Part shown: positions 1,095-37,592 of the stretch, piece after piece
Position numbering within the stretch: the first letter of the stretch is position 1
Layout: each line of letters starts with the position of its first letter
Source: Verrucomicrobia bacterium LW23
GTDB taxonomy: Bacteria; Verrucomicrobiota; Verrucomicrobiia; Methylacidiphilales; UBA1321
Reading direction: 5' to 3'
Assembly: GCA_003054695.1 (NCBI GenBank)
Contig: QAZA01000020.1
Location: forward strand, 1 to 56,488
DNA length: 56,488 nt
Position numbers and translations under genes: made by a program
Notes under the pieces: model-generated
Seen by the model: only the letters and a program-made list of their open reading frames with translations
The model's database searches: none
Told to the model about the DNA's origin: nothing

Positions 1095-3581
1095 TTACGG
1101 CGGCAGTCCCTGGTCGTCTTCCTCCTCCTCGGACGGGGCCGCTTCTCCGGTAGCTTCGGCAGCGTTTGGGCGCGAGTCGCGATGGCTCAGGCCCGGCGAA
1201 GCCTTGCTCTCCTCCACGCGAAGGAAGGGCGAGATCTCCTCATCCGGCCCGGGCCCGCGCGAGGCACGGCGGTACGAGTACGCGGGGCCGCCCGAGCCGC
1301 CGCCCGCTGCGTTTGCCCGCGGCACAGCGCCGCCCAGGAGCATCGCCTCCTTTTCGGACAGGCCGCTGGGCGGCGAGTGAACGACCTCGACCGGGCACTC
1401 GGGAAGCATCGCCAGGAAGGACTTGCCGTACGTTTTGGTAAGCACGCGCTGGTCCAGAATTACCAGGATGCCGCTGTCCGTGCCGGTACGGATAAGGCGT
1501 CCGGCGCCCTGGCGGAACTTGAGGATCGCCTCCGGCAGCGAGTACTCGCGGAAGGAGTCGCCGCCATTGGCCTCAATGCGCTCCATTTTGGCGGCGGTAA
1601 GGGGGTGATCCGGCACGGCGAATGGGAGGCGGGTGAGGATGACGTTGCTGAGCGCCTCGCCGGGGACGTCCACGCCTTGCCAGAAGCTCTCCGTCCCAAA
1701 CAGTACCGCGTTTTGTAACTCCTTGAAGCGCTGAACCATACGATGTCGCTGAAGGTTGCCGCCCTGCATAAGGAAGGGGAGGCCGGCCTGGCGGAACCCG
1801 GGCTCGAGCTCGACGGCCATGGCCTGCAGCATCTGGTAGCTGGTAAACAGCACAAAGGCTTTGCCCTGAGTCATTTCCACAAAATGGCGGATCCAGGCGG
1901 CGAGGGCGCGGCGATAGTTATCGCGGTCCGCGGGCTCGGGCATCATGCGCGGGATGAAAACTTTCATCTGTTTCGCGTAGTCAAAAGGCGAGTCCACCTG
2001 CAGCGTCAGCGCGTCCTCCCCGCCGATGCGATGCTGAAAGTAATGCAGGCCGCGCGAGACCGAGAGGGTGGCGCTGGCCATAATGACGGTGTGCTCCGGC
2101 TTGAATAGCAGGCGGCGCAGGTACGGCGCCACATCCACCGGCGCGCCGATAAGGCTGACGTGGCCGCCGCCTGCAGGTGCTGCGGAGCTGCCCGCACCAG
2201 GCCGGGCGCCTGCGCTAAACGTGGCGTTGGCAACGGGTTGTGCGCCAAAGGCTGCGGAAGTTACGCCGCCGGCGCCCGTGCCGCGCGCAGGCATGGCGGG
2301 CGCGGCGCCTTCCTCACCGGAGTCGTCGGCGGCACTGCCGTCCGCCCCGGGCGCGGGCGCTGTCCAGGCGCTGTCGCCAAAGCGGTCGGGCTGGCGCTCG
2401 ATCCAGTAGACGTGGTCCGCGCGGGCCTGGCTGAGGAACTCGCCAATGGCCTGGCGCAGGGAGGCGACCTGGCGGGCGGAGTCCTGAAGCTCCGCCTTCA
2501 CATACGAGTCGTCGACATCAAGCACGATATCGTGAATCGCCCGGTGCAGACGGGCGAGCGGCACATTGCAGATGTCGTCGACCAGACCCGGGATGGTGAC
2601 TCGCACCTCGCGGCCCTGACGGTTGGCCACGGCGGCCTCCACCATCGCAAAAAACTGGTCGCACGCGGCCACCGTTTCCTGCAGCAGGCGGATCGACTCG
2701 CCCCGGCGCAGCAGTTGAAAGAGGCCCTTGCGGGTGCGAGGGTGGTACAGCCGGTACAGCATCCGCCGCACGCCGGCGGAGGAGATATCGATGCCAAGGT
2801 GTTTGGACGCAACGGCTTCCAGCGTGTGCGCTTCGTCAAACACCACAAAGTCGTCCGGGTAAAGATACCCGGTTTCGGCCCTGTCTTCCTCGTTCATGGT
2901 GGCGAGCGAGGTGAAGAACAGGGAGTGGTTGAGGACGATGATCTGCGCGTCCTCGGCGGCCTTGCGGGTTTGCTGGTAAAAGCAGCGCGGGTCGTGCCCG
3001 CAGGTGCGCGGCGTGCACAGGTGGGGCTCGCTGCACACCTGGGCCCATACGCGGGGCTCGGGCGGCAGGTCAAAGTCGCTGAGGGTGCCGTCGGTGGTGG
3101 TGGCGCTCCACTCCACAATGCGGTCCAGCTCGGCTTTGTCGCTGGAGAGGAAGAGGTCGTGCACCTGCTCGTGGGCGCGGGCCAGGCGGCGGGGGCACAG
3201 GTAGTTTTGGCGGCCTTTGACGAGGACGGCGCGCAGCGGCTGGTTCAGCACCTTGGCCACCAGGGGGATGTCCTTGAGGAAGAGCTGCTCCTGCAGGTTA
3301 ATGGTATGGGTGCAGATGATCGCCTTACGTCCCGTCTCCAGCGCATGTAGCGCAGCGGGAATGAGATACGCCAGGCTTTTGCCGACGCCCGTGCCGGCCT
3401 CGGCAATCAGGTGCGTGCGATGCGCCAGACTCCCCGCCACCGCCTCGGCCATCTCCTGCTGCTGCCGGCGGAACTCGAAGTGTTTGGCCTTGCCAAGCAA
3501 CCCGCGTGGCGAAAAGATCTCCGCCACGCGCTTCGGCAGGTCGTTTTCCCTCGGGTCCTGTGGGTCAAGCGGACTGATCAT
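1095..3581 (-). CDS. dinG: ATP-dependent helicase, DinG/XPD (Rad3) superfamily 2
   Basis: This is a 5'-3' DNA helicase-type ATPase likely acting in DNA repair, such as unwinding R-loops or damaged duplexes. Walker A GTGVGKS lies at residues 63-69 and the DEAH box near 248-251. Between them are the cysteines of the family's 4Fe-4S domain (NYLC, then CSEPHLCTPRTCGHDPRC). The C-terminal helicase half contains FGTESFWQGVDVPGEAL and the arginine-finger region RQGAGRLIRTG. At 828 residues it is longer than E. coli DinG, partly because of a low-complexity Ala/Gly/Pro insertion at about residues 395-475. The tail is acidic (SEEEEDD). DinG is the best fit; other XPD-like bacterial helicases of the YoaA type are possible. 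Confidence 0.9.
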   Translation of the reverse strand: MISPLDPQDPRENDLPKRVAEIFSPRGLLGKAKHFEFRRQQQEMAEAVAGSLAHRTHLIAEAGTGVGKSLAYLIPAALHALETGRKAIICTHTINLQEQLFLKDIPLVAKVLNQPLRAVLVKGRQNYLCPRRLARAHEQVHDLFLSSDKAELDRIVEWSATTTDGTLSDFDLPPEPRVWAQVCSEPHLCTPRTCGHDPRCFYQQTRKAAEDAQIIVLNHSLFFTSLATMNEEDRAETGYLYPDDFVVFDEAHTLEAVASKHLGIDISSAGVRRMLYRLYHPRTRKGLFQLLRRGESIRLLQETVAACDQFFAMVEAAVANRQGREVRVTIPGLVDDICNVPLARLHRAIHDIVLDVDDSYVKAELQDSARQVASLRQAIGEFLSQARADHVYWIERQPDRFGDSAWTAPAPGADGSAADDSGEEGAAPAMPARGTGAGGVTSAAFGAQPVANATFSAGARPGAGSSAAPAGGGHVSLIGAPVDVAPYLRRLLFKPEHTVIMASATLSVSRGLHYFQHRIGGEDALTLQVDSPFDYAKQMKVFIPRMMPEPADRDNYRRALAAWIRHFVEMTQGKAFVLFTSYQMLQAMAVELEPGFRQAGLPFLMQGGNLQRHRMVQRFKELQNAVLFGTESFWQGVDVPGEALSNVILTRLPFAVPDHPLTAAKMERIEANGGDSFREYSLPEAILKFRQGAGRLIRTGTDSGILVILDQRVLTKTYGKSFLAMLPECPVEVVHSPPSGLSEKEAMLLGGAVPRANAAGGGSGGPAYSYRRASRGPGPDEEISPFLRVEESKASPGLSHRDSRPNAAEATGEAAPSEEEEDDQGLPP

Positions 3582-25056: not shown

Positions 25057-25610
25057 CCTGCCCGCGCTTCGTTTACCCACCATAAAACAACCGCCCGGGC
25101 CGGAGATCCCCTGCCTCCGATTCTCAGGCTCTGGAAAAGTGGGCCAATGTGCTGTAAGATTCTCCAGGGTCCCACCTCCTTCAACCAACCTCCACCGCCC
25201 GCAAATTTGGAGGATAAAACCTGGCGTTTGGAGGTTCGATCCCAGATCTTTATCCATCCATCTAACTATCCTTGTTGCAGTAAATTGTGCATGTTGCTCC
25301 GTTTTTTGTTCACTCTTCCGTAAAAATCTGTTGAATTCATCGATAAAAGCGTAAAAAAGTCGTGCAATCCTTTGCGGACTAGCTTATTCAACAGAGCGGA
25401 ACATCAGTATAGCTCACCGGAACAGCCCGAAGCGGGTCGGGATAACCCTTGCGATGATGCGCCTTTCTCTCCATGCCGCCCCTACTTCTCCCCTACCTTT
25501 TTTACACGCAGGCTTGCTTGCCACACAGGGACGTGGGAGGAATAAAGAGCGGTTTTTGTCCAGCTTGGCACAACAACTGTTCTCTCTAAAGCTTTCGCAA
25601 CTTTCCAAGC
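25057..25610. other. Intergenic region upstream of the parA-giant coiled-coil operon
   Basis: About 550 bases, AT-rich in the middle (25260-25400), with no supported gene. A tRNA-like fragment at 25212-25255 was examined and rejected. The promoter of the ParA operon should lie here; I could not single out one -35/-10 pair. Confidence 0.4.
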
Positions 25611-26426
25611 ATGCGCCTGATCGCCATTACCAGCCAAAAAGGCGGGGTGGGGAAGACCACCATCGCCCTCAACCTTGCCTATGCCCTGGCCAAACGGGGC
25701 AGGATGACGCTGTTGGTGGATTGCGATCCGCAGGGCTCCATAGGCCTGTCGCTCTCCCCGCAAGCTGCTGCGCGCAATGGACTTGCGGAAGTCATCGAAG
25801 GCACCGCCCCGCTGGACAAGGCCATCCTGGCCACCCGCATGACGGAGCTGCGCATCCTCACCGTCGGCCGCCCCACGCCGTCGCAAGTCATTCGCTGGAA
25901 CGATATTATGTCTGACGGCATGCTCTTCCACGAGGTCTTTGCGGCCGCCGCGGAGATGGGTATCGACACCCTGATTGCCGACACCCCCGCCGGCATGTGC
26001 GGCCCCACCCTGGGCGTGCTGCGCAATGCCGATTACGTCGTCATCCCCCAGCAGGCGGAGCCGCTGGCGCTGCGCTCCACCATTGCGTTTTTGGAGGCGA
26101 TTGCGCACCTGCGCGACGAGGGGCACCGCCTGGCCATCGCCGGGATGATTCTCACGATGCTGCAAGTGGAACAGGCAGAATCCGTTGGCGTGTTTCACGA
26201 GGTGAGCAAGCTGTTCCCGACGCATTTTCTTTTTGGCACTATTATTCCCCGTCACCCCCTGATTTTGCAGGCTAGCGCCAAAGGCGTGCCGCTGGGGCTG
26301 TTAACCAAGACGCCGCCGGCTCTGGCGCAGGCTTTTGATCAGCTTGCCGCCGAGCTGGAAGTTCGCGCGTCTCTAAACGCCGGGCAGGAGGAGGCTGCGA
26401 GCGATGTCGTTCCTGTCATGGATTAA
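25611..26426 (+). CDS. ParA/MinD-type ATPase
   Basis: 271 residues. The deviant Walker A KGGVGKTT near residue 10 carries the signature lysine. [15 protein letters not shown] is the A' motif and [11 protein letters not shown] the Walker B. This is the Soj/ParA small type, without an N-terminal DNA-binding domain, so the ATPase likely moves on the nucleoid. Near the C-terminus is [21 protein letters not shown]. Its last 23 bases overlap the start of the giant coiled-coil gene, a strong sign of coupled expression and joint function. There is no parB or parS nearby, so plain chromosome segregation is unlikely; McdA-like or polar-positioning roles are possible. Confidence 0.9.
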
Positions 26427-29400
26427 CCGCGATCAGCTGAAGGATCTGCTGAACCGCTCGGGCTTTCCCGAGGGCACGGCCGACCCCGCAACGGCGCAGC
26501 AGCCGATGTTGCCCGGCGCGATGCCGGTACCGCTGACCGTGCCCACGCAGCGCCCCGGCTCCGCCAATCCCGGGCAGTTTCGCCCGCTCACCAGCCCGCC
26601 GATGCCCGCGGCGGCGCCGGCCACGCAGATGGTGCGCCCCGGCGGCTCCACCATCATCCCCGGCCTGCCGACGGACGACCCGGTGGTGGGCGAGGATCCC
26701 ATTGTGGGAGAGGCATTTCCGGAAGATCCAATCGTACCCGGCACGGATGATCCGCAAGGGCAGGCGGCGGGCTTTGAGGCGCAGGCGCTGCCGCCCGCCG
26801 CCGGCCCGGCGCCCGCCACGGAAGGGCCGATTGACCCTGGCGCGGGCGCTACGCTGCAGCTGCACGCCGGATCGCGCGCGCACCCCAGGCTTGTGCCGCG
26901 CCCCGCCGCGGTGCCCGTGTCGGTAGTTCCCGGCAAATCGTCCGGGGCTACCCCTCCGCAGCTTCCTGGCTCGCCCAAGACGTCGACGGGCTCGCATTTC
27001 ACTAAAATTGGCATTGCCAAGCCGCCGACCGTGCCCACGCCGGCACCGACGCGCACCGGCTCCATCAAAATTCCCGCCAAAAGCGGGGATACCAGCCAGC
27101 TTGGCCCCAGTACGGAGGCGGCCCGCGCGCGCCGCATTGGTACGGGCCGTCTGCCCGGCACCAGCAGCACTGGGGGCACGGGCAAGCTGCCTTTGGCGCC
27201 GGATTCCACCAAGCTGAAGCCTAAGAGTGGTGATACCAGCAAGTTACCTAAGGTGGACAAGAGCTCGCTGCGGCCCAAGAGTGGCGACACGAGCAAAATC
27301 ACGCTGCCCAGCTCGGTGGTCACCACGCAAAAGATGCCGTCCGCCAAACTGCCGACTGCTGCGCAAGTGGCTGCGGCGGAGGCAGAAGCGCGTGAGCTTG
27401 CCGCCTCGCAGCAAGCTGCGGAGCCCATCACCCCGCAGCGGCCGGTGGTGCTGCGCAAAAGCATGCCGCTGACGCAGTCCGGCCCGCTGACGCCCGGGGG
27501 CGGACCCGCGCTTCCGCCCAAATCGCAACTGCCGCCGGCGTTGCCGGCAGGGGAGAAATCGCGCCGGCCCTTTTTGCCGAACGTAGCCCCGTTGACGGCG
27601 CCAGATACGAAGATCGTGCCGATTTCCGAGCAGGCCACTCAGCCGATGCGGCCCAGAAAGCCGGAAGTGCCTTCCACACAAAAGGTTGGGGTGGGCGCCA
27701 GCTCCACGGGCCGCGTGACGCGCGGGCCCTTCCCCAGCGGCGTCAAGCCGCCGCCCGGGGTGCCCGCATCGTCCATCAAGGATAACTCCACCCTGCAAAA
27801 GGGCTCCACACAACGCATTCCGTCGACACAGTCGCTCTCCGCCAACGCCGACATGCTGCGGCAGGTGCGCGAGCTGGAAGCGAATTTTGACGCGATGCTG
27901 GAACGCGCCCGCGTGGCCGAGGACAAGTGCACGGGGTTGCAGAACGAACTGGAGGCGTATCGCATCCAGATTCAGGACACCGAAGAACAGCTTGCGACGG
28001 AACGCCAACAACGCGAAGAACTTGCGGAGATTGCGGCAAACCTGCGTGCCCACGAGGAGCAGGAACGCGCCCGCCTGGCCGAAGACGAACGTCGCCTGGC
28101 CGAGGCCCGCGCCGAATTGGAAGGCACGGCGGAAAGCTTTCAGAAAGAACGACTTGAGCTGAATAATGCGCGACTGATGTTGCGCGAGATGGAGACCAAC
28201 AACAAGCGTCTGGCCCGCCAGCTGGAAGTTCGCGCCAAGGAAGCCGAGCGCGCGTCCGCCCTGATTGAGGAACTGAAGGCGCGGCTGGAGACCGAAACGC
28301 GTGAGATTGACGCCCTGCGCAAGGCCGCCCAGGAGGCCAATGAGGCCCTGGCTCGCGATGCCGTTCTGCGCCAGCAGATTGAGGCCGAGCATGAGCAGTT
28401 GAAGCTGGAGGTGGAGCACACCGCCGCCGAAAGCCTGGCCCGCGAGCAAAAGATCGCCGAGCTGCAGGACGAAATGCGTGCCCGCCTCGAGGAGTTGGAC
28501 CAGGAACGCGCACGCGGCACAGAGCTGGAGAAAAGCCTGGAGAAAATGCGCGAGCAGCAGGCCGAGAGCCACAGCGCGTTACTCGATTATCAGCAACGAC
28601 TTGCGACAGCCCGTGACCTGTTTGAGCGCACGCGGCAGGAGCTGGACAGCGAACGCGCGGACTTCTCGAAGAAGATGCGGGAGATTTCCGCAACGCCCTC
28701 TGAACCAGGTGTTTACGATAACGGTGTTGGCCCGGATCGTTCCGCCGATCGTCGCGAGCTGGAGAGCCGGCTTGCCGCTCTGGAGGCCGCATTGGAGGCG
28801 AGCGAAAGCCGTCGCGTCGAAGCGGTGCGCACCTGCGAAGAGCTGGAGAAGGCTCGCACGGAGGATCGCGACGTTCTCAACCAGGAGCGGCTGTCCTTTG
28901 CAGGGCAAACCGTCGATGAATTTCAGCGGCAGTTTGGCCTGGCGGAAGTATTCCGGCAGACTGCGCTGGTATCGGAACCTGTTGCACAGCAATCGGTTGA
29001 AAAGCCGGCGACCAAAGACGAAGAAGCGGTATGGCTGCACGACGAGCTGATGCGCGAGCACGAAACCGCGATGGCGGAGCTGCGCGGCCTGCGTATGCAA
29101 CTTGCTGAGCGGGAAATGGATGCGGAGAAAGCGCGCGAGGAAATATCGCAGCTGAAGCACGAGTTTGAGGCAAAAAACGCCGCGCTTATCGAAGCGCGCT
29201 TGCAGGCTGAGGCCGAGACGCGCTTCTTTGCCCAGCAATCGCAGGTACAAATCAGCAAGTCCCGCAACGAGCAACAGGCTGCCCTGCGCGTGGTTGCCGA
29301 AAAAGATGCCGAGCTATCGCTAGTGCGCAGCCAGCTGGAAGCACGCCTTACGGAAAGCGCTCAGCTTCAACAGGATCTGGACAAGCTGCGCGAAGGCCAG

Positions 29401-32400
29401 TCGGCTGAAGCCGAATCCGGAGCAACAGCGCTGCAGGCAAGGATTGCCGAGTTGCTGGGCGAGGTCGGCACCCTGAGCGCGCGTCGCGATGAGCTTCAGG
29501 TGCAGAGCGGACAGCTCGGCGAGATGCTGGAGCAGAAAACGCAGGAAGTCGTTCTGCTGGAAGAATCTCTGAAGCAGGAGAAAGAGCGGCTTCAGGGCGA
29601 GGTGGATCGCCTGTCCGCGCAGATAGCCACGCTGGAGCCCGCGTTGAACTCAGCGGTAATGCGGGCAGATACCTCTGCGGCAGAAGTACTTAGATTGCAG
29701 GATGAATGTGCGCAGCGTACCCGCGAGCTGGAGCAGCTGCGAGCCGCTGCTCCTGTTTTGGTCTCTTCGCAACCTGCTGATGCACAACAGGATCTGTTGC
29801 TATCCACCATGGACGCGGACGGCCAGGCAGCCGCCGCCCAGCGGCACATGGAGGAGGCGAACGCGCGCCTGGCCACCCTTGCGACGGAACTTTCCGAGCG
29901 CGAAACAGCCTTGCAGGCGGCGCACCTTCGCCTCGCGCAGGACGAGTCGTGGCTGTTGCGCCTGAGCGCCGATTACGACTTGTACCGCCAGGCGACGGCC
30001 GAGGCCGCCCAGCGCGAGCTGGAGAACGCCTCGCTTCCCGCGCAGCTGCAAATGCTTCGGCTGGAGATGCTTGTGCCGTATATCGAGGACCTTATCCACA
30101 ACGACAAGGCTGCCGAAGCAGCCTCGTTTTCGGGTGACGCCTCGCTGCTGGCGATCGCATCCCACATGGATCGCAAGGGCCAGTCCCTGCAATCGCTCGA
30201 AGGCGAGATTGAGAAGGCGCGCTCGGAAATTGAGGAGCGCGAAAGGAAGTGGAACACGCTGCATGCCGAACATTCGCAAATGCTCGCAGCCGTAGGACTT
30301 ACGGCGAGCGATCTTGACGAGCGCTCGCGCCGCGTGGAGGCTGTGCAGTCGGAGCTTGCCCAGCGCGAAGCGGAGCTGGAGCAGCTTCGCCAGGACGCCC
30401 TCAACATCCGAAGCGAGCGCGACGAGCTTGCTGATCGCCTGAATGCCTCGCGCGAAGCGCTTGAAGCTGAACGGGATAAGCTGTTGCAGGAACAAAATCG
30501 CCTGAGCGAGACGCACGCGCGCCTGCAGGAAGCGAACGATGCGCTTGGCTCCGAGGCCGGCGTCTCCACCAATCTACGTAACCGCCTGGAAGCCAGCGAG
30601 AAAGAAGTGGCCGCAACGGAAGGCCGCCTTTCCGAGCTCCTGCAGCGCTATGAGTCGCAGGTAGGCGAGTCGGCGCAGGCCGCAGCGCTCGCCGAGACGC
30701 TTCGCGAGCGCCTGGAGGCGGCTGCCTCCGAGCACAATGCGCTGATGGAGCAGCTTGAAGGCTCTCGAAAAGCGCTGGATGCTGAGCGCCAACAACTTAT
30801 GTCCGCCCGCAGCTTGCAGGAGCGAAGCGGAAAACACCTCGAATTCGTCAATCAGACGCTCGATTTCGAGGTCAAACATTCGAAGAATCTTACCGGACAG
30901 CTGGCCGAGAAGGCCGCCCTTCTACTCGCAACGGAAGCCCGTGTGGCCCAAGGGGAAGCGAAAGTTGTCGACCTGGAGTCGCAGCTTGTTGCCCTGCAGA
31001 CCCGTTTTGATGAGGAAAGCCGCCGTACCTCCGAAGGCGAAGCGCTGGCCAAAGACCTTCAGGACAAGCTGGAAGCCCTTGGAAACGAGCGGGATGCGTT
31101 GACACGTAGCCTCGACAACGCACGCTCCGATCTTGCCCTGGAGCGCGAGCATATGCTCGAAGAGCAGGCGCGCATGACCGCATCCACCACGCACGTGCAG
31201 TCGCTCAGCGAGGCGATGGAGGCCGAGCATGCCAAAGCGCGCGAGCTTCGCTCGGACATCAGCGCAATGGAGTCGCAAATCGTTGTCTCGCAGGCACGTC
31301 TGGCGGATCTGCTGCAAAAGTACACGTCAGAGGTCCAGCAGGCGGCGCAAACGTCCGAGCTCGCATCCTCGCTCTCTGCCGAGCTGGAAGGAGTTCGCGC
31401 GGAACGAGATGCGCTTGCCGCGCGCCTCAAGGAATCTCAGGCGGCGCTGGATCAGGAGCAATTGCAGCTCAAAGAGGAAAGCGGTCGGCTTGAGGACTTC
31501 AAGCAGCGTTTCCGCAACCAGGTTCGCCTTACAACGGAGTCCGGCGCACAGGCGGATATCCTTCGCTCCCAGCTACTTACTGTTCGCCGCGAGCGCGATC
31601 AGCTCTCCGCCCGCCTGGATGAAACGCGTGTGAGCCTGGGCACCGAGCGCCAGCGTCTTCTCGACGAGCAGGTGCGCATCGGGGACCTGCGCCAGCGCCT
31701 GGATGCGTCGACAGAACGCGTTGTGGTGGAGACGGATGCGTCGGCGCAGCTGCGTGCCGAACTCGAAGCGGCGCGCCTGAACGCTACGGAAACAGAGCAT
31801 CGCCTCAGCGACCTGCTGCAGCGCTTTGACGCGCAGGTTGCAGAGACATTGCTTGTCTCTGGCGTTGCGGAAACTCTTCGCAATCAACTGGATGAAGAGA
31901 TTGCACGCACGGAATCGCTTGAAATTCAGTTTACCGCCAACCAGGGACGTGCGATGTCCCTGCTGGAGCAGGTTCAGGCCCGCCAGCAGGAGGTGGAAGC
32001 TGCCGCAACCGCGCGCATCACTCTCGAGGCGGAGGCCGCCGACCTGACCAAGCGCCTCAACCACGCGCTGGCCGATGCGGCGGCGGTTCGCGATCTTCTG
32101 GTCGAGGCCGAAGCATCGATTGTCAAGCTTACCGGGCATCGCGACGAACTGCTGGAGACTATCAGTCAGCACCAGGATTCGCAACATCGCACGGCTTCCG
32201 CGCCGATCCACGGATTTGCGGATCACTTTGCGCTTGTGCAGTTTATCGAGGATAAGATGCGCGATGCGGACGCCGTCGCGCACGATCTGCACAGCAGTCG
32301 CGAGGACCTGAGCCGCCAGGTGGAAGCCACGGCGCGCCTGCAAACGGTAGCGGCCGATATTGCTGCGGACCTGGAGGCGGCGCAGTCGCGCATCGGCGAT

Positions 32401-35400
32401 GCGGAGTCGGAGATCGCGTGGCTGAAGCAGGAGTGCGAGGCCGCAGGCGGACGCGTGGCCGATCGCGATCGCCAGGTGGAAGCGCTGCGTCTGACCTGCA
32501 TGAACGTGGAGGGCCAGCTTGCTGAGGCGCGCGAGGAGATTCGCCGCCGCGAGGCCGACCTGGCGAAGCGTCAGTTGCAGATCCAACACCTTGAGGCTGA
32601 GAGCCATAAGGGCGAAGAAGCGCGCCGTGTGGAAGGCGTGCTGCGCGCGGAAATTACCGAGCTGCGCCGCGAAGTGGACGAGGCGAACTATAAGAGCGCA
32701 GGTCTTCGCGATCAGTTGTATGTCTTTGAGAGCGAGATGGATGTGAATCGTCGGGCTATTCGCGAGGCTCAGGCCGAGGCGGCCGCCGCACACACCGCCC
32801 TTGCCAGCCTGCACAAGGTCCGCGATGCGCTTCAGTCGCAGTTTACCTTGCGCAGCAAGGAGGCGACCGACGCGCGCCAGCAGATGGACGCCGCCCACGA
32901 GGCGCTGCGCGAACGCACCGCCGCCGCGGAGCGCCTGCGCCAGGAGTTGTCCGTCGCCCTCGAATCCCTCACTGTCAGCGAGCAGCGCCTCTCCGAACTG
33001 GAAGAGAGCAACACGCGCTTTGCGCTGGAATGCAGCGCCGCTACCACCACCGCCGCGGAGAAAACGTCCGCACTGGACCTTATCTCCGGCCAACTGGCGG
33101 AGGCCCGAATTCAGCTCGAGAACAAGCACTCCGAAAACGAGACCCTCAGCCGCCTTGCGGATGAGTACAAACAGCAGGACGCCGTGAACAAATTCCAGAT
33201 TGCCGACCTCCAGAAGACGCTCGCGCGAGTGCATGCCGACTTTGAGAAGGCGAAGCATGATCTTGAGCATGAGCGACTTGAACTGACCGATACCCGCGAA
33301 TCGCTGCGCAAAGTCAAGGCCGACGCCGAGAGCCTGGCCGGGCGACTGGAAAGCGAGGCGCGTCGAAGCAGCGAGGCTACTGCCCAGCTTCGTGACAAAC
33401 TGCGCGCCGAGGAAAGCCGCGCCAGCCAGCTTGCGCAGGAGGCCGCCGAGGCTCGCGCCTCGCTTGCTGAGCAGCGCCAGGCGCTTCAGCAGGTGCGCGA
33501 TGAATCCGCAAAGCTGCGTGCCGAGCTGGCCGATCGTGCTCGTGCCAGCGAGGATCAGGCCAGGCGTCTGGCCGCGCTGGAGGAGGCTGCGAAGGGGACG
33601 TCCGTGGATGCGGAAGTTCTTCGCAAGCGATTGGAAGAGAAGGAGTTGGAGGTGGAGCGTCGCAACGCGGAGCTGTTGGCATTGCAGGAAGCGCTGCGCG
33701 GCAAGGAGGGCGAGGTGTCGTCCGGCACCAGCAACCTGCTGGCTTTGCAGGAGACGCTGCGTTTGCGCGAGTCGGAGCTCTCAAGCGGCGCCATTTCGCT
33801 GCAGGAGGCGCAGGCCTCGCTGGCGGCGCGTGAGAAGGAAGCTGCTGCGGCGATGGAGGAGCTTCGCAAGAAGGAAGCCGAGATTTCGCAGCGGATGCAA
33901 GAGCTTGAGCAGGCGCAACTTGCGGAGAGCCTACTGCGTGCAAACAACCAGGAACTGGCGGGCAGAATCAGCGCGATGGAGGAGGAAGCGAAGCGTTCGT
34001 CGGCGTTTGCAGACGAGTTGAAGAACGAGTTGGAATCGCTGCGGCAATCCTACGACATTGCGCGGAACGATTTGATGGAGGCGCATGCCGCCGTGGAAGG
34101 CACGCGTGCCCCGTTGCAGGCGCTGGAGTCTCGCCGAGAGCAGCTGGAGGCCGAGCTGGAGGCCGCGAAGGCAGAGCACGGCAAGGTGCAGCTGATGGCG
34201 CAAGATCTTCGCGGACAGTTGGATACAGCGATTGCGACTCATTCGACGGATATCGATGCGGTGCGTGCGCAGTTGCGTGACAAGGAGGCGGAAGTTACCG
34301 CCAAGTTGAGCGATTTGCAGGCCGCGCAGGACTCGCTTCGCAGTAAGGACGACGAGATTGCGACGGCGCGCGAGGAGCAGGCGCGTCGCGAGGAGGCGGC
34401 GGCCGGGCTGCGTCGCACGAACGAAGAGCTGAGCGGGCGCATAGCCTCGCTGGAGGAGACGTCGCGCGTGTCGAGCGAAAGCGCTGCTGCGCTAACCTCT
34501 CAGCTGGAAGAGCTTAAGCAGATGCTGGAAGCTGCGAAGGTACAACTGGCGGACGCGAATTCCGCGCACGAGACGACTCGTAAGGCGCATCAGTCCGCCG
34601 AGGAGCAGCGAGTGCAGCTGGCGAAGGATCTGGAGGCAGCGAAGCTGCAGCTGACGCAGGCATCTAACGCGTCGGAAGTAACGCGCTTGCAGCTGGTTAC
34701 GGAGTCTGCCTCCCGCTTTGCGGATCTCCAGGCGCTCACGGCGGATATTGAATCGCTGCGCGACGAGCTGCGTCAACGTGAGACTGAATCGAATGAGCGG
34801 CATGCGCAACTTGTTGCGGCGCAAGAGGCTTTGAAGCAGAAGGAGGCGGAGAACGCGGAGCGCCAGGCGGAGCTCCAGAAGCTTGCTGAGACGCTGCGAA
34901 CCCGGGAGCAGGAGATTTCCGATCGGGCCGGCGAGGTGCAAACGGTTCGTAATGAGCTGATTACGCGCGAACAGGAACTGGAATCCGGCCGGGTTGAGCA
35001 GCGGCGTAAGGATGAGTCCGAGGCGGCGCTGCGGCGCGCCAACGAGGAGCTGCTGGTTCGCATTTCCGCGCTGGAGAGCGAGGCTGCAAGTTCTTCCACG
35101 GCAGTCACTTCGCTGCGCGATGAGCTGGCGAGGCTGACGGCGGGGCTGGAGGCGCGCAGCAGTGAGCTGAGCAATGCGCGCTCGCAGGCTGATCAGTCAG
35201 CGGCGACGGTGGCGGATCTGGAGAGTCGGCGCTCGCAGCTGGAGGCCGATTTACAGGCGGCGCGTGCGATGCACCAGGAGGCTGCGACGCTTGCGGAAGC
35301 CCTTCGTGCGCAACTCTCTACGGATTCTGAACTTCGCCAGAAGCTGGACGCCGAGCTGGAGGCGGCCCGCGCGTTTGGCACTACCCATGAGGCGAGCCTG

Positions 35401-36639
35401 GCGGCGGTGAAGCAAAAGCTTGAGCATGAAGCACATGAGGCGGCCCGACTACGAGACGAGCTGCGGACGGTGAGCGAGAATGCCGAGGCTCTGGCCAAGG
35501 CCAAGGAGCGCCTGGAAGCGGATGAGGCGGCGCGTACGGCGTCGCTGCGCGAGCAGCAGGCCAAACTTGGCGCGCTGGAGGCGGAGAAGGAATCGCACCT
35601 GCGCGACCTGACGACGGCGCGCGAGCAACTGCAGGCGCGTGAGAACGAGCTTGAGCAGCTGCGCTTGCAGGAGGCCAATGCGCGTGCGCAAGCCACTGCG
35701 TCTACGGAGGTTGCGGCGGCGCGACTGGCGGGCGTGCACCACGAGAAGGAGACGCTTTCTCAGGAGGTTTATACGCTGCGCGACAGCCTGTCGCAAAGCC
35801 AGGGCAAGTCGGACGAGCTGCAGCGCGAGATTGATAAGCTACGTGTTGCGCTGCAGGGGCTTGTGCCGACGGACGGCAAGTCTATCCGCGAGGCTTTCCC
35901 GGCGCTGGCGACGCTTGATAATCTGCCGTCGGAGCTGTCGGAAGCGCGGGAATTCAAAAGCGCTGCTGAGGTTGCGGAGCACGCGGGGCGCTTTGTGCGG
36001 TTCCTGACGAGCACGGTAGCAGCCGAGGAGAGCGAGCTTACGCGGATTCGCGCGGAGCTGGCGGCGGCCCGCGAGGCGGCGATGACGCACGAGCAGCGGC
36101 GCACGGAAGTTGAGGCGAAGGCCGCGGCGGAGAGCGGCGAGCTGGCGCGTCTGCGCGAGAGCCTGATGCGTGCGATGGAGAGCAACGCGGCGAAGGATAC
36201 GACGCTGCAAACGCTTTCGGAGAAGCTGCAGACGCAGGAGAACACCATAGGCGAGCTGCGTGCCGAACTGAGCGCGCTGCAATCGCAACTTGCTGAGAAG
36301 ACGGCACTTGTGGCTAAACTGGAACACGAGCTGACGAGCGCGAGGGAGATGGCGGCCGCTGTGTCCGCAAGCGTGCCGGAGTTTGCGGAGGCCACCGGCG
36401 CTGCGGAATCCGACGACGCGCAGGCAATGCAACTGCTTAGCCATGAGGAGCTTGTGGGGCAGGTGGGGCTGCTGCGGGCGGAGAATCGCCGCGCGTTGCA
36501 CAACATGTCCGCCCTGCGGCACCAGATCGGCCGCCTCGAGACGACGCTGGAGGCCGTCCGCCGCGACTACAATCAGGCTGTGGAGGACCGGGAGTACTTC
36601 AAAGCCCGGGCGTCGATGGCCGAGGCCCGGCGGTATTGA
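26404..36639 (+). CDS. Giant coiled-coil protein, 3411 aa, partner of ParA-type ATPase
   Basis: The ATG at 26404 has a GGAGG-rich site 9 bases before it. Residues 1-25 form a short amphipathic helix ([19 protein letters not shown]). Residues ~26-480 are Pro/Ala/Thr-rich and disordered, with KSGDTS at 226-231, 274-279 and 292-297. Residues ~483-3395 are almost continuous Glu/Ala/Leu/Arg heptads with no signal peptide or membrane helix, so the protein is likely cytoplasmic. As one straight coil, ~2900 residues would span roughly 430 nm. Internal modules recur (ERDxL...RL...ER...L near 30420, 31090, 31400 and 31600; LRRxNEEL at residues 2511, 2669, 2876). The C-terminus is [20 protein letters not shown] and ends in MAEARRY. 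I know no named bacterial protein of this build. A scaffold or filament positioned by ParA is a hypothesis. Confidence 0.9.
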
Positions 36640-36852: not shown

Positions 36853-37278
36853 TTACAGCCAGCCCTTCAGCAAGCGCCACGCGGGCTTGCCGATGATCAA
36901 AGGTGAGGAACCCCCGGCGCCCAGCAGACGTGCGGCGGCAACATGCAGGAGATCAAGGCTGCGGCTGGAGATGGTGGGCGTGTAGCGATCGCTGAGTTGC
37001 CGGGCCAGGTTGTGCAGCTGGGCGGTATCGACCTTCCGCTCCTCAAGCACCCCGGCGCTGAGGTGAAAGAGGAACGTGGCCCATTGGATATCCCGATCTG
37101 CAGGAGTGATTCGACCGCGCGCAATCGCGAGGTTAAATGCGTTGCGAACTTCAAGAATCCCCAAAGGAACCATGGAAATTGGAGCCGTGAGCGACGCGAA
37201 CGTTGCCGTGGCCGCTTGTGTTGTCGACTCCTTAATGTAGAGGGATACGAGGAAGCCTGTGTCAGCGTAAAAAATCAC
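36853..37278 (-). CDS. PIN-domain toxin (VapC-like)
   Basis: 141 residues. It begins IFYADTGFLVSLYIKES with the first catalytic Asp. GILEVRNAFNLA carries the conserved Glu and SRSLDLLHVAAARLLG the C-terminal acidic residue, the VapC/PIN order. It should be an endoribonuclease toxin. It starts with GTG overlapping the stop of the upstream antitoxin (GTGA). The target RNA is unknown. Confidence 0.8.
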   Translation of the reverse strand: MIFYADTGFLVSLYIKESTTQAATATFASLTAPISMVPLGILEVRNAFNLAIARGRITPADRDIQWATFLFHLSAGVLEERKVDTAQLHNLARQLSDRYTPTISSRSLDLLHVAAARLLGAGGSSPLIIGKPAWRLLKGWL

Positions 37279-37592
37279 CGGTCGCCCCTGTCTCGGATGA
37301 ATGCGGAGTCTTCCTCCGACAGCATTTTGGACATGTCATTCCCGTATACTTGGCGATGTATCTCATCCCAGTCCGGCTTCATGCCATTCGGGGTCGAAAC
37401 CATGGCGGTAATAGGCTTTGCTTCCGGTGCGGAGGGGGAGGTTAGCAGGAAGTTGCTACCCGAAACGGGCGAGCTCTCCTCCAGCTCCACCGTCGCCGTC
37501 ACGCGCAGGCGCTTTTCGCGCAGCTCCTTGGGGATGGGGAGGTGCAGCGTGCCGTCGGCGTCGGCCACCAGGATGGCGGTGATCAGGCTCAT
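37275..37592 (-). CDS. Antitoxin partner of PIN toxin
   Basis: 105 residues starting at ATG. The N-terminal part (ITAILVADADGTLHLPIPKELREKRLRVTATVEL) has the small beta-rich, AbrB-like look of DNA-binding antitoxins. The middle is a flexible linker. The acidic C-terminus with PDWDEIHRQVYGNDMSKMLSE probably wraps the toxin. Overlap with the toxin gene and the order antitoxin-toxin support the call. The exact family is not certain. Confidence 0.7.
   Translation of the reverse strand: MSLITAILVADADGTLHLPIPKELREKRLRVTATVELEESSPVSGSNFLLTSPSAPEAKPITAMVSTPNGMKPDWDEIHRQVYGNDMSKMLSEEDSAFIRDRGDR

Follow-up and report, generated by a model that had tools for sequence, protein, structure and literature searches.

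Many ParA-type ATPases are termed orphans, owing to the great diversity of their partners (PMC10241942). Among the characterised partners, ParB contacts ParA via an N-terminal helix, chiefly through hydrophobic residues plus one arginine (PMC12462528), and the N-terminal 20 residues of McdB suffice for McdA binding (PMC12204374). PomX, which forms filaments, has a 22-residue N-terminal activating peptide, an Ala/Pro-rich region (27–182) and a coiled coil (222–401) (PMC7993993). The locus described here lies in a stretch of DNA from Verrucomicrobia bacterium LW23 (the window), a complete contig (C20) of 56,488 bases with a guanine-cytosine (GC) content of 62%, from a 6.6 Mb genome. It encodes a ParA/MinD-type ATPase and, overlapping it, a partner of 3411 residues (the giant). 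Comparative analysis showed that these genes belong to a dedicated, old ParA-partner pair of the class Verrucomicrobiae.

Pairing of the ATPase and partner genes

The gene pair was organized as follows.

25611..26426, forward strand: ParA/MinD-type ATPase, 271 residues; Pfam AAA_31 (2.2e-24) and CbiA; AlphaFold2 model; in the tree, a verrucomicrobial clade apart from Soj
26386..26394, forward strand: ribosome-binding site AGGAGGAGG within parA, followed by a 9-nucleotide spacer and the ATG of the giant
26404..26426, forward strand: overlap of parA and the giant gene, 23 bases
26404..36639, forward strand: giant partner, 3411 residues, ~376 kDa; no Pfam match

The 23-base overlap and the strong ribosome-binding site within the ATPase gene, noticed in a first-pass annotation of this DNA, were borne out by the coordinates. 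The giant was a single unbroken reading frame with coding-type third-position GC throughout its length. As that annotation had also stated, no parB was nearby: none was found within the window, and the sole strong ParB_N match of the genome was on another contig (C5).

ATPase orthologues were detected in 53 of 384 sampled genomes of class Verrucomicrobiae and, in the phylum sample, were confined to that class. Seven of the eight genomes of g2, the sister genus of the window genus (g1), carried one; neither the ATPase nor the partner was found in g3 and G004. When 51 ATPase genes were extracted for neighbour-gene analysis, the gene directly after the ATPase carried an N-terminal W-[I/V/L/F]-[D/N] helix motif at 46 loci. 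When 908 other gene ends were put through the identical procedure, 7.4% of those followed by a reading frame had the motif. The remaining five loci comprised two with a related helix lacking the Trp, one with a decayed partner, and two ATPases with no adjacent partner. The two Trp-less loci were tandem ATPase-partner pairs of the clade in G020, a genome of the same order and of family f6 (L070:1547-5185), and both had coiled-coil partners.

The stop codon TAA of parA (26424-26426) ended 7 nucleotides past the first base of the partner's Trp codon. Outside family f11, every motif-bearing locus (20 of 20, drawn from at least five families and including the giant) had an identical stop-to-Trp register. 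This fixed register was the strongest sign of homology among the partner genes. In family f11 the register and overlap differed and the Trp-x-Asp motif persisted, which showed that selection acts on the protein motif as such and that the motif is not a mere by-product of dual coding.

A profile of the roadblock-type partner matched in 40 genomes, all of them within the 53 ATPase-bearing ones, and in none of the other 331 genomes of the class sample, so that no relative in that sample carried such a partner without the ATPase. The matches adjoined the ATPase gene with a single exception, G351, in which the ATPase contig ended inside the partner gene (L082:3825-4940, whose final part before the contig end is a long Glu-Gln-Pro repeat) and the roadblock piece was on another contig. 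The only true orthologue in a scan of named genomes came from Verrucomicrobiaceae SSF29 (L026), the other matches being ordinary ParA/Soj; since a single query sequence was used, absence from the other named genomes is weak evidence.

The phylogenetic tree showed that the ATPase clade was split from Soj at 100/100, with nine Soj sequences on the other side of the branch, so the ATPase did not cluster with ordinary parAB loci. The window ATPase grouped with those of G020 and g2, the other coiled-coil pairs, at 94/89. Exclusive co-occurrence and the separate clade supported the dedicated pair that the first-pass annotation had deduced. Plasmid and phage origins were considered and rejected: tblastn of the ATPase against 72,556 plasmids gave no match, and viral contigs gave generic ParA only, in long alignments at ~30% identity.

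A role in chromosome or plasmid segregation, in which the partner acts as ParB or as an SMC-like protein, would agree with the ParA family membership and with the coil of one g2 relative, which weakly matched SMC profiles through its heptads. It is nevertheless very unlikely, as the giant has no ParB domain or ATPase head, the clade is separate from Soj, a chromosomal-type Soj gene is present elsewhere in the window genome (contig C39), and plasmids gave no match.

Modules of the partner proteins

The partners of relatives were 168–605 residues long, versus 3411 in the window. Outside the order of the window they had 168–478 residues and usually ended in a C-terminal roadblock/LC7 domain. The AlphaFold2 model of the C-terminal domain of a relative had the order alpha-beta-beta-alpha-beta-beta-beta-alpha and matched the roadblock/LC7 structure 3kye and MglB 6hjm (Z 12.4 each). 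A hidden Markov model of this domain matched 36 partners and gave nothing for the giant and the other coil partners; Pfam and NCBIfam had no name for the non-coil partners. Coiled coil was predicted only in the partners of the window, g2 (440–605 residues, of which 159–338 were coil) and G020, with zero in the roadblock partners. The roadblock and coil modules are therefore mutually exclusive, and their distribution follows the tree. The giant coil, which the first-pass annotation had treated as the defining feature, is thus not what defines the pair: relatives pair in the same way with far shorter partners, usually with a roadblock domain in place of the coil.

The features of the giant were as follows.

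26404..26463, forward strand: N-terminal W-[IVLF]-[DN] helix motif, residues 1–20, proposed ParA-docking peptide; present in 46/51 loci against 7.4% by chance
26464..27828, forward strand: Pro/Ser/Thr-rich basic linker, ~450 residues, isoelectric point 10.3 (residues 26–455), with KSGDTS repeated
27829..36630, forward strand: heptad coiled coil, residues 476–3409, in 22 segments with diverged internal duplications
Residues near 829–872, 1180–1249, 1815–1849 and 3155–3197: coil breaks, with prolines in several of the breaks between segments

The N-terminal motif was conserved at hydrophobic positions 0, 1, 6, 9, 10 and 13 relative to the Trp (position table). The first-pass annotation had called this helix amphipathic. 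Although relatives have kept the helix, its hydrophobic moment was no higher than in shuffled sequences, so the label applies to the conserved positions only. The conservation of these ~20 residues strongly suggests that the helix is the ParA contact. Behind it, residues 1–400 as a whole contained 70 Pro and few aromatics. No Pfam domain was found in the 3411 residues of the giant, including no ParB domain, no ATPase head and no recognised anchoring domain.

From residue 480 onward the hydrophobic period of 3.5 had a mean power of 4.2, versus 1.0 in shuffles (maximum 1.3). COILS-type scoring gave 87% coil-positive residues after 480, versus 32–43% in shuffles, and 2568 coil residues in total. 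The matrix used for this scoring was checked in two ways, by the roadblock partners as negative controls, none of which scored any coil, and by the independent Fourier test. The ~2900 residues of heptads read from the first inspection were confirmed by both methods.

Diverged internal duplications were found within the coil. For example, the segments at residues 1388 and 1780 shared 24 of 50 identities, and the best score was 111, whereas heptad-preserving shuffles reached no more than 76. No recent DNA-level tandem duplication was found in the giant beyond one trivial pair. The coil thus lengthened through old duplications, after which its coiled-coil character was maintained.

It had been proposed earlier that the giant forms a cell-spanning filament, ruler or tether, a single extended coil of ~430 nm with one end fixed to ParA. 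The length, ~2900 coil residues at 0.15 nm each, stands as an upper bound from the residue count, but 22 segments with breaks make a broken rod, not one continuous helix. Duplications retained as coil while the sequence diverged speak for the proposal, since length or rod form seems to have been selected. Against it, several breaks contain prolines, coils of ~160–340 residues, or none, suffice in relatives, no anchoring domain was recognised in the giant, and only a single genome is known to carry the giant form. We regard a filament or tether as improbable. That the length is an assembly artefact or belongs to a decaying gene is scarcely credible: it occurs in one genome assembly and no relative of its C-terminus was found in 62 genomes of the order, but the 10.2-kilobase frame is open with steady codon-position GC, shows no DNA-level tandem copies, has an N- and a C-terminus that are each single-copy in the genome, and keeps its coil periodicity up to the last residues.

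ATPase residues and the proposed mechanism

The AlphaFold2 model of the ATPase (predicted local distance difference test score, 92) was closest in structure to Soj (1wcv; Z 33.4, root-mean-square deviation 1.7 over 239 residues); BcsQ (Z 26.3) and FleN (Z 24.8) ranked below it. Three sites were located in the gene.

25635..25661, forward strand: deviant Walker A, KGGVGKTT, with signature Lys10 and P-loop Lys15, both invariant in 48 of 48 paired ATPases
25725..25727, forward strand: Asp39, counterpart of the catalytic Asp60 of Myxococcus xanthus ParA in the alignment with 8ray
26259..26261, forward strand: Leu217, aligned with Arg238 of M. xanthus ParA, the DNA-binding residue that it replaces

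Asp39 was likewise invariant among the 48 aligned members of the clade, so the catalytic residues of ParA are in place. The pocket through which M. xanthus ParA binds ParB, when mapped onto the clade, was variable, and it also varied in Soj of the same genome.

We consider it moderately probable that the pair is a two-gene ParA-type subcellular-organisation system, with N-terminal docking, a self-assembling module and placing under the control of the ATPase. ParA-ATP dimers would dock on the W-I-N/D helix that makes up the first ~20 partner residues. The disordered stretch would link this helix to the self-assembling C-terminal module, through which the partner would become multivalent. Binding of the partner would trigger ATP hydrolysis and release, and in this way, as in the PomZ/PomX and McdA/McdB systems, the partner assembly would be kept spread out or held at a given place within the cell. 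The module would be roadblock/LC7 in most lineages and a coiled coil in the order of the window, and the coil, which internal duplication has lengthened to ~2900 residues in the window genome, probably forms a large scaffold or meshwork. Helix docking and module assembly are proposed because the layout equals that of the characterised partners ParB, PomX and McdB.

Several observations weigh against this reading. Arg238 of M. xanthus ParA is required for non-specific DNA binding (PMC12462528). At the corresponding position 217 all Soj compared had Arg, while the clade had mostly L, S, A or I and a basic residue in none of 48 members; positions 187, 226 and 243, basic in most or all Soj compared, had also lost the basic residue. 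Ratcheting on the nucleoid is therefore unproven, as the canonical DNA-binding Arg is replaced clade-wide. Known ParA-activating peptides need a positive residue (PMC13170346), and the peptide here is not reliably basic: its net charge was 0 in the giant, +3 to +4 in g2 and negative in most roadblock partners examined. Together, the non-basic peptide and the lost Arg238 counterpart argue against a simple PomX- or ParB-like nucleoid ratchet. In addition, the partner was missing beside the ATPase at two loci and decayed at a third, and no cargo gene consistently adjoined the pair across loci.

The same substitutions bear on the main rival explanation, in which the ATPase has ceased to bind the nucleoid and, like BcsQ or FleN/FlhG, serves its partner as an ATP-dependent switch for assembly or recruitment, setting when the scaffold assembles or where it is attached. 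The non-basic counterpart of Arg238 throughout the clade, Leu217 in the window, and the losses at 187, 226 and 243 agree with such a switch. However, other conserved basic residues arise in the clade at 76, 155 and 252; these could form an alternative DNA surface, which may or may not compensate, and the nearest fold is Soj, above BcsQ and FleN. A switch of this kind is possible, though rather unlikely.

In the neighbourhood of the pair, argC (arginine biosynthesis) was some kilobases downstream on the opposite strand in the window and shortly downstream in the g2 loci, which fits vertical descent. ARAGORN and Rfam called no tRNA or Rfam RNA in the window; a tRNA T-arm-like sequence, GGTTCGATCCCAGATC, was seen upstream of parA (25200-25262). 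Just downstream of the giant, a VapBC-type resemblance was observed: a short PIN-toxin-like open reading frame (36853-37278, reverse strand) and, directly upstream of it, another short frame (37275-37592, reverse strand), neither with a Pfam match. The best ParB match (G000:C5:51383-51682) and the Soj gene (G000:C39:120156-120932) were on separate contigs, and no parB adjoined the chromosomal soj of the window genome. The place beside this soj where parB is expected was taken by a protein that begins MQSSKWPDIFF and has an extended Pro-rich portion (L024:8034-9689, reverse strand). A protein starting MRWPDIFF (L020:2403-3563, reverse strand) was found just upstream of the nadC-parA-partner locus in one g2 genome. 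Neither protein had a Pfam match; they are possibly another Trp-headed adaptor of a ParA.

Comparison with known systems

A co-encoded, N-terminally docking ParA partner as such is of an already known kind. No description of the clade, of a roadblock-paired ParA or of a partner of such size was found in the literature searched, which covered few subscription journals. The data suggest that these pairs form a family of cell-organising systems in bacteria that has not yet been described. We tentatively suggest a Verrucomicrobiae-specific class of ParA-driven organiser, with an ATPase devoid of one canonical Arg for nucleoid binding, a fixed docking helix, an exchangeable roadblock or coil module and, in one lineage, a cell-scale coiled-coil scaffold of more than 3400 residues. 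The compact docking motif, the ancestral overlap and the clean module swap make the partner recognisable from sequence alone across ~50 genomes, and independent evolution of the docking and assembly parts of ParA partners becomes directly testable. The ATPase-partner family is worth describing, and the giant, its striking extreme, raises the question of what a bacterium gains from a scaffold coil nearly ten times longer than those of its relatives.

The system resembles PomZ/PomX of the M. xanthus PomXYZ system in its ParA/MinD ATPase and in a partner with a short conserved N-terminal peptide, a Pro-rich linker and a C-terminal coiled coil. Unlike in PomX, the peptide has Trp-Ile-Asp/Asn and no overall positive charge, and the coil is far longer; unlike in PomXYZ, the genes are adjacent and overlapping, and in most relatives a roadblock domain takes the place of the coil. 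With McdA/McdB, which positions carboxysomes, it shares the two components, a ParA-type ATPase and a partner with a disordered stretch whose N-terminal ~20 residues are proposed to bind. The Walker A of McdA lacks the signature lysine (SGGQGKT; PMC9178275), whereas the ATPase here has it (KGGVGKT). Microcompartment genes, in contrast to McdA/McdB, were not seen in the window, the part of the genome that was searched for them.

Soj/ParA and Spo0J/ParB have the same fold, the same catalytic residues and a hydrophobic N-terminal partner helix as the proposed contact, but here the ATPase forms a separate clade (100/100), the Arg238 counterpart is not kept and the partner has no ParB domain. The best-known role of roadblock domains is in the control of polarity GTPases. 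The C-terminus of the relatives' partners shares the MglB-type roadblock/LC7 fold, but it is attached to an N-terminus of the ParA-docking type and co-encoded with a ParA, and it is absent from the giant. Unlike SMC/Rad50-like coiled-coil ATPases, the giant has no head domain in its chain. The long coiled-coil or scaffold proteins Streptomyces Scy and bactofilin/PadC work with the chromosomal ParA; compared with these, the pair described here differs in having a separate ATPase clade with its own co-encoded partner.

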